The position numbers and the translations under genes were made by a program. From the IMG/VR virus record IMGVR_UViG_3300032086_000127, positions 1 through 47,694 of that record: a DNA stretch of 47,694 nt; one strand, given 5' to 3'. Below, in pieces: positions 23,984-26,045 of this stretch. Source of the stretch: a virus. Below the pieces are notes generated by a model. The model did no database searches. It had not been told where the DNA came from and saw only the letters and a program-made list of their open reading frames with translations. Within the stretch, counting starts at the first letter, position 1; the number at the start of each line of letters is the position of its first letter.

Positions 23984-24343
23984 TCAAGCAGACTTGCGCT
24001 TACCTTTCGGCAGATTAGCAAGTTCAACAATATCCTGCACGTCAAAAGCCCCCATGTCAATGGTATGGTTTTTGCGGTCAAGAGTTTTGTCAATGCCTGT
24101 CAAAAGCAAATCAAACGTAGCCTTAGAGTTTGAGACAATACGACTGCCAAACTCAGCTTTCACTTGACGTGCGGCTGTACGGCTTGCCTTGTAAGCACGA
24201 GTTTTAGACAATTCTTTGCCTGTCTTTTTCTCGAACTTAGCGGCAACCCTAGCAAACTTACGAGCATTATCCTCGTTTAAGTTTTGACCTGTCAAGCCTG
24301 TTGATTGCTTCCAATAAGATACTACAAATGATACATTAGCCAT
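23984..24343 (-). CDS. First gene of the leftward unit; small basic protein (119 aa)
   Basis: Opens MANVSFVVSYWKQSTGLTGQ after an AGGAG site. It is Lys/Arg/Ala-rich and helical (ARKFARVAAKFEKKTGKELS; ASRTAARQVKAEFGSR), with a short hydrophobic C-terminal helix and a basic end GKRKSA. It should be the first protein made from the leftward promoters and could be a DNA-binding regulator, but no known helix-turn-helix or family was recognised. Confidence 0.72.
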   Translation of the reverse strand: MANVSFVVSYWKQSTGLTGQNLNEDNARKFARVAAKFEKKTGKELSKTRAYKASRTAARQVKAEFGSRIVSNSKATFDLLLTGIDKTLDRKNHTIDMGAFDVQDIVELANLPKGKRKSA

Positions 24344-24388
24344 GATAAAAATCTCCTGTTGGTTTGTGTTTCTTGGCTGTGTAGGCAG

Positions 24389-24417
24389 ATAATGCCTAGT
24401 AAAAGCATCGTTGTCAA
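24389..24417 (-). promoter_or_regulatory. Leftward promoter before the first early gene
   Basis: Minus strand: consensus TTGACA (24412-24417), 17-nt spacer and CATTAT (24389-24394, 4 of 6). It lies 46 nt upstream of the ATG at 24343 and immediately after a GGGGGCA/TGCCCCC stem (24418-24461). It is the best placed candidate for the early unit. Confidence 0.55.
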
Positions 24418-24840
24418 GGGGGCAGTGCTTAACTGGCAGATTGCCTAGCGCAATTGCCCCCCTGTTTATTTTTGGATTTCAATTTCTGTTAGCTATACAG
24501 CGATAGACTTGCAACCCCAAGTGGTATTCGGAATATTCGTTACAAAAATTGTCGATTACTATTATTGAACCTCGCCTATCGGTTTGGGGTAGTTCTGCGG
24601 TAATACGCTCACCCTACATTACTTTGCTTGCCGCCCGTTGCCACCTCAGCCGCTAGTCCTATCTCGCCCTCGATACCGCTACACTTGGTCACAGTTCTGG
24701 TTACAAGACGGTTCTCTAGCATAGAGCCGTTCGTATCTTGAGTGCGTTGCCCCGCAGGTATCTGTCTCAAGGTTCTGTTTTTGGATAGTCCATCGACTAG
24801 CAGGTTTTTAAGTGGCCTCATCCACTGCCCCTTAACGCTA
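24418..24840 (-). ncRNA. Candidate structured non-coding RNA, novel (about 420 nt)
   Basis: This stretch has no convincing gene but is rich in nested inverted repeats on the minus strand. Visible pairings: AGTGG/CCACT hairpin (24811-24826); TAGTC/GACTA with 4-nt loop (24786-24799); CTTGAG/CTCAAG (24737-24771) with inner TGCG/CGCA; a long hairpin (24704-24740) combining CAAGA/TCTTG, ACGG/CCGT and CTCTA/TAGAG around a 3-nt loop; long-range GCGGTA/TACCGC (24674-24679 with 24597-24602); ACCCCAA/TTGGGGT (24584-24590 with 24514-24520); and a final GGGGGCA/TGCCCCC stem (24418-24461). A TTGACA box lies just upstream (24858-24863). Two pairings are mutually exclusive (shared CAAG). It matches no RNA family that I recognise; size and phage context recall ornate phage RNAs such as GOLLD or ROOL, without sequence evidence. 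End points are estimates. Confidence 0.45.
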
Positions 24841-24863
24841 GGGCATTGCGCTTGGCCTGTCAA
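24835..24863 (-). promoter_or_regulatory. Possible leftward promoter for the structured RNA
   Basis: TTGACA (24858-24863) is perfect on the minus strand, but at 17-nt spacing the -10 is only TAGCGT (24835-24840). It would start transcription just before the first hairpin of the structured region. An activator may be needed, or this may not be a promoter. Confidence 0.35.
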
Positions 24864-24897
24864 CCCCCTGCCTCATCGCTAGTGTGCGGATGATAAA

Positions 24898-24915
24898 GCC
24901 CCCACAATTTGGGGC
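24898..24915 (-). terminator. Weak hairpin, possible attenuator
   Basis: Minus strand GCCCC/GGGGC stem with an 8-nt loop followed by TTTATC. The T run is short. It lies between two leftward TTGACA repeats and might separate their transcripts. Confidence 0.3.
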
Positions 24916-24946
24916 AAGCACTACGTCTGACCTATGGCCTCATCAG

Positions 24947-24975
24947 TTTATGGCAGAACCGCTTTTCCCTGTCAA
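24947..24975 (-). promoter_or_regulatory. Leftward promoter candidate (upstream copy)
   Basis: Minus strand TTGACA (24970-24975), 17-nt spacer, CATAAA (24947-24952, 4 of 6). Part of the upstream of two similar repeats. It would transcribe the structured RNA region and the early genes. Confidence 0.45.
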
Positions 24976-25146
24976 CCCCTCAATCGCTGGTGCGGATTGT
25001 TAAGAGACCCATAGTCTCAAGAGGTAATCAGGTGAAGCCGTTATCGCCTCGCTGATGATTAAAGTAAACACTAATCCGAAATGAATGTAAACCCCTTGCT
25101 CATAAGTCATTGATTTTATTGGATTTTGATATTCCAGCTGGTGACT

Positions 25147-25183
25147 GTTCATGGTTTGTTTCTAGTTCGTTCCTGTTTCGTTC
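25147..25183. promoter_or_regulatory. Phased GTTC array containing an alphaproteobacterial-type LexA box
   Basis: Half-sites recur every 11 bp: GTTC (25147), GTTT (25158), GTTC (25169), GTTC (25180). The last pair forms a perfect GTTC-N7-GTTC (25169-25183), the direct-repeat motif known for LexA in Alphaproteobacteria. The regular one-turn spacing suggests cooperative binding of LexA or of an unrecognised phage repressor on one DNA face. Confidence 0.6.
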
Positions 25184-25204
25184 TATGTGTAGCAGATAGG
25201 ATGA

Positions 25205-25219
25205 GAACAAAAGGGGAAC
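25205..25219. promoter_or_regulatory. Second LexA-type box (GAAC-N7-GAAC)
   Basis: Perfect reverse-orientation motif: GAAC (25205-25208), seven bases, GAAC (25216-25219). It lies 21 bp after the phased array and just upstream of a TATAAT (25231-25236), where it would cover the -35 region. Binding would block any rightward promoter there. Confidence 0.55.
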
Positions 25220-25280
25220 GCTTACGTGTATATAATATAGTAGGGGGTATAGGATTAGATACACGGCCGGATAACATTCT

Positions 25281-25440
25281 TAGCCTCGACTAACTTTCTT
25301 TACTTTATTTAATACTGCTATTGCGGCAATTCATATGGTATCAGTTAACGATTTACTATTAACTTATTGATTTAATTGTTTTTTATCTTATTTGATAGCT
25401 GGTTTTTACAATTTAAAGTAGCAAAGCAACAAAACCTTTA
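25281..25440. other. AT-rich non-coding tract, possible origin or attachment region
   Basis: About 160 bp of markedly AT-rich sequence (for example CGATTTACTATTAACTTATT) between the LexA-type boxes and the rightward promoter. No gene or clear repeat. AT-rich unwinding elements or attP sites occur in such control regions, but nothing here proves either. From 25441 to 25650 I see only a GGTGG/CCACC hairpin (25449-25470). Confidence 0.25.
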
Positions 25441-25650
25441 CAACTCAAGGTGGTAGGGCAGGACGCCACCCCGGTACGTATAGTTATATATACACATAAA
25501 TACACAGATTAGGAAAATCAAGTGTTAACCACAAAGGTAACTGTCACCCTTATAGATAACTAGCTGCCTATTTATTGTGCAGAATAGGTGGGGGTGTGTG
25601 GACCAAGACACACTAAATGATAAAAAGATGTTAAATTCACAAAAAAGGGG

Positions 25651-25679
25651 TTGACAGTGTACCCATTTCTGAGTATAAT
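25651..25679 (+). promoter_or_regulatory. Perfect sigma-70 promoter of the rightward unit
   Basis: TTGACA (25651-25656), 17-nt spacer and TATAAT (25674-25679): full consensus in both boxes and spacing. It is followed by GTATAAC. No gene lies between it and the first rightward gene at 25827, giving a leader of about 140 nt with inverted repeats. Such a strong promoter needs repression in a lysogen. Confidence 0.85.
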
Positions 25680-25695
25680 TATAGTATAACAAAAC

Positions 25696-25771
25696 ACACT
25701 TAAAGTGTTTCACTTATAATTGTTATTAATATTATCTTGTTAAATACACTTACAATGTAACACTATAAGTG
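25696..25771. promoter_or_regulatory. Cluster of CACTTA/TAAGTG repeats (putative operators) after the promoter
   Basis: A perfect 13-bp palindrome ACACTTAAAGTGT (25696-25708) begins about 17 bp after the -10 box. CACTTA recurs at 25711 and 25747 and its inverse TAAGTG at 25766. This looks like a set of repressor or activator sites overlapping the start of rightward transcription. Confidence 0.5.
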
Positions 25772-25826
25772 ACATTGGTAAGTAATAAGATACGTAAGTA
25801 AATATACGTGCTATGAAAGTTTTCCC

Positions 25827-26045
25827 TTGACAAAACGTAGAAAATCTGTAAAACTATACACAGACAATGTACTTGATGCTTTCTATGAAGCTATACGTAC
25901 CAACTCATTAGACCGTTTACATATCCCTCACAGTGATGTCTTCTATGTGCGTACAGCAGTAGAGGCACACTATGGGCGTTCATTTACTTTGAAACACGTA
26001 GAGGACGCAATGAGGGCTGAAGGTTGGAAAGAGCCTAACGAATAA
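25827..26045 (+). CDS. First rightward protein, TTG start (72 aa)
   Basis: The frame opens at TTG, with GAAAG about 10 nt upstream and no in-frame ATG near the N-terminus. Begins MTKRRKSVKLYTDNVLDAFY; basic N-terminus, then helices and a short C-terminal AEGWKEPNE. It may be a small DNA-binding regulator given its place behind the main promoter, but no helix-turn-helix is evident. Its stop overlaps the next ATG (TAATG). Confidence 0.65.
   Translation: MTKRRKSVKLYTDNVLDAFYEAIRTNSLDRLHIPHSDVFYVRTAVEAHYGRSFTLKHVEDAMRAEGWKEPNE

Follow-up and report, generated by a model that had tools for sequence, protein, structure and literature searches.

What is held in the non-coding DNA that lies ahead of the replication genes of an HMO-2011-type phage? 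Our window, a stretch of 47,694 nucleotides, comprises the whole IMG/VR virus record of such a phage. Its leftward operon encodes a 119-aa protein, a GP88-like protein, integrase, primase, DnaB-like helicase, DNA polymerase, Cas4-like nuclease and ribonucleotide reductase, its rightward operon encodes terminase, portal, major head protein and tail genes, and a divergent non-coding stretch occupies 24344–25826. Within this stretch, adjoining the first leftward gene, an initial annotation had placed a candidate large structured non-coding RNA at 24418–24840. To our knowledge, few classes of very large structured phage RNAs have been described, and their functions are open. Our analysis supports the kind of object that was proposed and only part of the proposed fold: we consider it probable that the minus strand at 24418–24831 encodes a discrete structured non-coding RNA, with its own promoter at the head of the replication operon, which would act in trans as a scaffold.

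Much of what had been read from the sequence was readily recovered. The proposed limits are close to those of the RNA as we now draw it (~24831–24418), and no credible gene lies between them, as the longest ORF encodes 84 aa and matches nothing in Pfam or PHROG, and relatives do not conserve the stop-free stretches. The complementary segments were present at their reported positions (a composite hairpin at ~24704–24740, ACCCCAA/UUGGGGU at 24584–24590/24514–24520, and GCGGUA/UACCGC at 24674–24679/24597–24602), as were the TTGACA just upstream (24858–24863, minus strand) and a 7-bp G-C stem at the end (24455–24461/24418–24424). Because the folding energy of the 423-nt region was no better than that of shuffled sequence (z = −1.13, with 15 of 100 shuffles folding as well; z = −0.99 for the plus strand), complementarity within the window is not by itself beyond chance. 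The sequence alone was insufficient to make the case; the comparison of relatives supplies it.

Using the 119-aa gene as an anchor, together with three conserved RNA motifs, we gathered 43 distinct RNA sequences (including that of the window), mostly in IMG/VR contigs of HMO-2011-type marine phages. By sequence they fall into four subgroups: W (the window and five others), B (7), C (19) and D (11). Scans with a W-type pattern returned mostly unrelated coding DNA and contributed two W members (L071 and L117). The RNA occupies the same slot wherever flanks could be checked, with a length of ~410 nt in the window and ~400–620 nt in relatives. The 119-aa gene, whose protein has a predicted fold of low confidence (pLDDT 62.5), is not in every case its neighbor. 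Because at least four unrelated genes come after it across the relatives, the RNA does not serve as leader to any single gene, and we found no constant link to a single downstream gene of the sort that a riboswitch or leader of the 119-aa gene would have. The features proposed for the window are as follows.

23984–24343, minus strand: first leftward gene, 119 aa, function not assigned.
24389–24417, minus strand: second promoter, TTGACA-N17-CATTAT, serving the leftward operon and matching the consensus at 10 of 12 positions.
24418–24831, minus strand: structured RNA, putative extent (start ~24831–24828, 3′ hairpin end 24418), drawn from covariation in the W alignment (A2), promoter spacing and the 3′ hairpin.
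24418–24461, minus strand: 3′ hairpin H11, a G-C stem without a U run after it; ACCGGCGAC/GUCGCCGGU at the equivalent place in relatives.
24480–24551, minus strand: helix H8, CAAUUUUUGU/ACAGAAAUUG, 10 bp, closing part of the 3′ domain; CACAUUU/AAAUGUG in relatives.
24589–24617, minus strand: helix H7, GUAG/CUAC; AAUGCGG/CCGCAUU or AAUGAUG/CAUCAUU at the equivalent place in relatives.
24645–24726, minus strand: core stem Pa, CUC/GAG (24726–24724 with 24647–24645) and UGCUAG/CUAGCG (24721–24716 with 24656–24651).
24662–24708, minus strand: core stem Pf, UCUUGU/GCGAGA; consistent changes in the W alignment.
24675–24695, minus strand: core hairpin Pc, ACUGU/GCGGU with an ACCAAG loop; changed to CCAGUG/CAUUGG or CCAAUG/CAUUGG in W relatives.
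24729–24826, minus strand: 5′ domain H1-H2-H3, ending in GAUACGAAC (model R2); drawn from covariation, the tree null and R2 matches.
24737–24771, minus strand: helix H3, CUUGAG/CUCAAG (24771–24766 with 24742–24737), around H3b, UGCG/CGCA; drawn from covariation.
24786–24799, minus strand: helix H2, UAGUC/GACUA; GAGGU/ACCUC, GGGGC/GCCCU, GGGUC/GACCU or UAGCC/GGCUA in relatives.
24811–24826, minus strand: helix H1, AGUGG/CCACU (24826–24822 with 24815–24811), loop AUGAGG; GGUUG/CAACC in relatives.
24835–24840, minus strand: −10 box of the RNA promoter, TAGCGT, after a 17-nt spacer; TAGNNT at the same place in many relatives.
24858–24863, minus strand: −35 box of the RNA promoter, TTGACA; equivalents upstream of the core in most relatives.

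Within the window's own subgroup, the 36 proposed pairs are paired in 99.1% of cells across the six W sequences. Changes on both sides of a pair account for 24 cells, compared with at most 3 for slid controls and a mean of 7 under a tree null (0 of 300), in a test that favors the proposed structure because that structure was partly read from the alignment's own consensus. Pa, with all cells paired in the six sequences and a single consistent change (C-G to U-G), is weak by itself in W because there is no two-sided change and too little variation. Pf has one-sided consistent changes at four pairs and a two-sided change at one, and its last pair has two unpaired cells. Pc corresponds to helix 5 of the alignment of the other subgroups (A4, below), and some form of its ACCAAG loop is present in all four. 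Between the window and its close neighbor L124 there are 27 differences in the RNA stretch. One pair has changed on both sides (A24767-U24741 to C-G, in H3, which elsewhere reads CUGCC/GGUAG or CUGCU/GGCAG), the differences at 24719, 24691, 24662, 24600 and 24486 fall in proposed helices with pairing kept, and 24755 and 24744 both differ, breaking one H3b pair.

The 5′ domain could be followed beyond W. Its cells are 99.3% paired, with two-sided change at 9 of 18 pairs (tree null, 0 of 300), and a covariance model of it (R2, trained on five W sequences, including that of the window, and three B sequences) recognized 17 held-out relatives, comprising all 11 D members, three C2 members and three further B members. 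These matches (E from 1e-6 to 0.12) sit immediately upstream of the match to the core model described next, and apart from the window itself nothing else scored below E 5 in 324 kb. A sequence-only model of the same domain recovered 12 of the 17, partially and mostly more weakly.

The core shared by subgroups B, C and D opens with CGAAC/U, has its CCAAG loop 80–84 nt on in most members (farther on in those with insertions), and comprises Pa, Pb, Pf, Pc and a pseudoknot, Pk, in which the Pb loop pairs with a downstream segment. A covariance model trained on subgroup C only (R1) found, in place, seven of seven held-out B sequences (E about 4e-19 to 2e-11) and 11 of 11 held-out D sequences (E 3e-12 to 4e-5), and nothing else in 266 kb scored better than E 0.26. 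In A4, an alignment of 37 R1 matches fitted to the nested helices and not to Pk, two-sided changes occurred at 24 of 26 pairs, for a total of 230 cells, compared with 77 in shuffles (0 of 500) and 22–53 with slid partners; under a tree-aware null the mean was 57 and the maximum 110, with none of 300 replicates reaching 230. Pk was paired in 75.8% of A4 cells, with two-sided change at four of its five pairs. A plain, unfitted MAFFT alignment of subgroup C (A3) gave 65 two-sided cells, versus 22 in shuffles and 2–15 with slid partners, and the tree-aware null gave the same picture as in A4. In an alignment-free arm-swap test, 0 of 5000 permutations were as good for Pa, and likewise for Pk. In an all-against-all covariation test with the tree null over the 37 sequences, one pair passed alone, partly because the plain alignment shifts the Pa 3′ arm by one base between subgroups, and helix-level tests were therefore used instead. 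The covariation support is thus at the level of helices and of the structure, not of single pairs.

R1 did not match the window; the W core lacks Pb and Pk. The tie between the window and the other subgroups rests on the 5′ domain, the slot, the Pc loop and the 3′ hairpin. With covariation across homologues holding up strongly against four controls (shuffles, slid partners, arm swaps and the tree-aware null), sequence comparison shows helices kept through compensatory change, in the same genomic slot and ahead of different downstream genes. Of the outcomes that the initial annotation had named as refuting, the ordinary folding energy alone was observed. Stems of this RNA are conserved among relatives, but they are not the long stems that the annotation had singled out. 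The composite hairpin shows no covariation, has two of its pairs broken in relatives, and competes for sequence with H3, Pa and Pf, three helices that relatives retain. Of the long-range stems, the 7-bp and the 6-bp one could be traced in no more than the three closest sequences. Judged by eye, the 6-bp stem is incompatible with Pc, which is kept, and in W members farther from the window other helices occupy these positions. Also rejected was the closing stem of the minimum-free-energy fold, 5′ GGGGCAGUG with 3′ CACUGCCCC, which, again by eye, relatives do not preserve and which is in competition with the 3′ hairpin.

The exact ends of the RNA are predictions drawn from its flanking signals. 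Both a script and inspection by eye found TTGACN-N17-TANNNT upstream of the core in most relatives, at a promoter-to-core distance of mostly ~85–130 nt; the script missed or mis-picked some cases, among them the window, where the box at 24863–24835 gives ~95 nt. At the other end, H11 has further variants in relatives, and directly 3′ of it comes the second promoter, with a similar one in relatives regardless of the next gene (the variants and the promoters of the relatives were read by eye). Farther upstream in the window, 24898–24979 (minus strand) carries another TTGACA promoter (−35 at 24970–24975), which has upstream sequence in common with the RNA promoter (the CCTGTCAACCCC repeat) and is followed by a short segment, perhaps a small RNA, with a terminator-like hairpin GCCCCAAATTGTGGGGGCTTTATC at its end (from 24915); tandem promoters apparently also occur in some relatives. 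The 119-aa gene is bracketed by a 22-nt inverted repeat (86%; 23936–23957/24388–24409) that overlaps the −10 region of its promoter and is possibly an operator. In nearly all relatives the most conserved DNA of the region is at 25443–25554, which is non-coding, and 25842–25900; parts of both blocks match HMO-2011 and CRP phages, and they are candidates for an origin or operator.

The RNA was not found throughout the group. Neither R1 nor R2 gave a match within the slots of nine HMO-2011-type records (in several of which the slot is cut at the record end), no RNA was detectable in the slots of L052/L053, HMO-2011 and the CRP isolates examined, and a blastn search with three RNAs against GenBank phages returned nothing. 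The slot seems to hold alternatives in some phages; in HMO-2011, protein genes occupy it. L021/L022, on the same contigs as L052/L053, have a small ORF (MAKARLGKRERAKL...) ~370–160 nt upstream of the 119-aa gene and no RNA match. At the left ends of CRP-207 and CRP-9 (L131 and L134), unannotated slot stretches that look structured by eye, matched by neither model, are possibly other RNAs. A scan of bacterial genomes with the conserved hairpin pattern gave three matches, none of them matched by R1, which we took as chance.

How should such an element be understood? We regard an independent early transcript that serves in trans as an RNA scaffold as most likely. Because no run of U follows the 3′ hairpin, transcripts may end there or continue into the operon, which keeps alive, as the main rival, a cis-acting leader: the RNA would be the 5′ portion of a leftward transcript made early and would modify RNA polymerase, by put-type antitermination, or otherwise control the 18-kb replication operon. 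The constant position of the RNA, with a promoter before it and the first gene of a long operon after it, fits such a leader, which we nonetheless judge unlikely. A better promoter directly behind the RNA, with a similar one in relatives, means that the operon can do without the RNA's transcript; with its 400–620 nt the RNA is several times longer than put; and L052/L053, HMO-2011 and the examined CRP isolates have no detectable RNA in the slot.

The initial annotation had also allowed for an origin or multi-protein DNA site, whose inverted repeats would mimic RNA stems. The region does lie next to the divergent control region, which is partly A+T-rich and coincides with the GC-skew minimum, but a DNA-level element gives no account of compensatory changes over long distances, in nested helices and a pseudoknot, and also fails on the leftward promoter at a similar distance in most relatives and on the wobble pairs. 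Read on the leftward strand, the helices contain 82 G-U versus 32 A-C cells (53 versus 32 without one constant G-U pair), an excess that is moderate support for an RNA of that strand. Deeply conserved DNA blocks, moreover, lie elsewhere (25443–25554 and 25842–25900), and we disfavor this reading as highly improbable. We give no more credence to a degenerate intron or ribozyme (group I/II-like or a new self-cleaving one) in place of a scaffold: the size, the pseudoknot and the conserved unpaired joints might be taken as ribozyme-like, but no Rfam intron or ribozyme model matches, there are no interrupted exons, and the RNA has its own promoter.

In the scaffold reading, an RNA of ~410 nt would be read leftward from its own sigma-70-type promoter ahead of the DNA-replication operon, presumably as a discrete RNA early in infection because it sits at the head of that operon. 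It would fold into a 5′ domain of three hairpins (H1–H3), a core of Pa, Pf and Pc (to which B, C and D add Pb and the pseudoknot), a variable 3′ domain and the G-C 3′ hairpin, and would present conserved unpaired motifs to a host or phage partner in trans: the UAAAA linker, the ACGAG/AUGAGG loop of H1, the GAUACGAAC joint and the ACCAAG loop of Pc. A role as antisense to the phage's own genome was set aside: the longest match was 15 nt, equalled in 1 of 20 shuffles.

The relatives also show exchange of modules between phages. L054 and L056 are 99% identical in their middle and 3′ parts and 61–64% identical in the 5′ part and core, where shuffled controls give 50–61%; L054 shares its core with L040 (95%) and not its middle (58%); and L034 has its 5′ domain in common with the window (92%) and its core with L038 (81%). 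Module limits are approximate because segments were cut at fixed distances. With one module 99% identical and its neighbor replaced, such exchange amounts to a natural domain-swap experiment. More tentatively, the RNA may represent a new class of large phage RNA whose domains are interchangeable and recombine between phages, folding alone as an RNA-only assembly or together with a host protein and serving early takeover or protection of the cell. Phages of the HMO-2011 type, which carry it, have been described as belonging to the most abundant viral groups of the sea (PMC9038755, PMC6918029). Their control region holds a gene missed by protein-based annotation, and natural variation among these phages is enough to fix much of the RNA's secondary structure without experiments.

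Among phages of the same type, HMO-2011, CRP-1 and CRP-345 are like the window in genome layout, in the divergent slot and in conserved 72-aa and 97-aa genes, whereas the isolates examined differ from it in having no detectable RNA in that slot; in the papers on HMO-2011-type phages that we searched, we found no mention of such an RNA. Among known RNAs, the put antitermination RNA of phage HK022 is likewise placed after an early phage promoter and ahead of the first gene. It is short, with two hairpins, and lies within the operon transcript, whereas the window RNA is followed by a second promoter, and the likeness would be in the way of working only.

Large RNAs of the GOLLD, ROOL and OLE classes form homo-oligomeric assemblies in cryo-EM, with a nanocage for GOLLD and ROOL. 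No Rfam 15 family matched the RNA, and these three classes gave no match either at gathering score (the window and 14 relatives) or up to E 10 (the window region and six relatives). A group I intron, RNase P, tmRNA or tRNA was likewise not found at the RNA region by covariance model or ARAGORN. The only RNA genes found at gathering score were tRNAs elsewhere in relatives; the window has none, and five C relatives (L010, L013, L017, L023 and L025) have one ~2 kb downstream of the core, ~1.2–1.9 kb downstream of the 119-aa gene start. GOLLD is a large structured phage and prophage RNA, of unknown function, with a conserved region beside a variable one, and one well-studied member came from a marine metagenome (PMC12286853). 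It is often >800 nt and near tRNA islands, whereas the RNA described here is ~400–620 nt, lies at the head of a replication operon and has no covariance-model match to it. ROOL is large, ornate and pseudoknotted, ~600 nt, and likewise often near tRNA islands in phages and prophages (PMC12286853); it differs from the window RNA in position and in the lack of an Rfam match, and modules are swapped among the relatives of the window RNA. The comparison with GOLLD and ROOL drawn in the initial annotation is thus apt for the kind of RNA and not for descent: extensive covarying structure without coding capacity, the mark of a large structured phage non-coding RNA, is present here, and by sequence and structure we regard the RNA as a new family of a kind already known.
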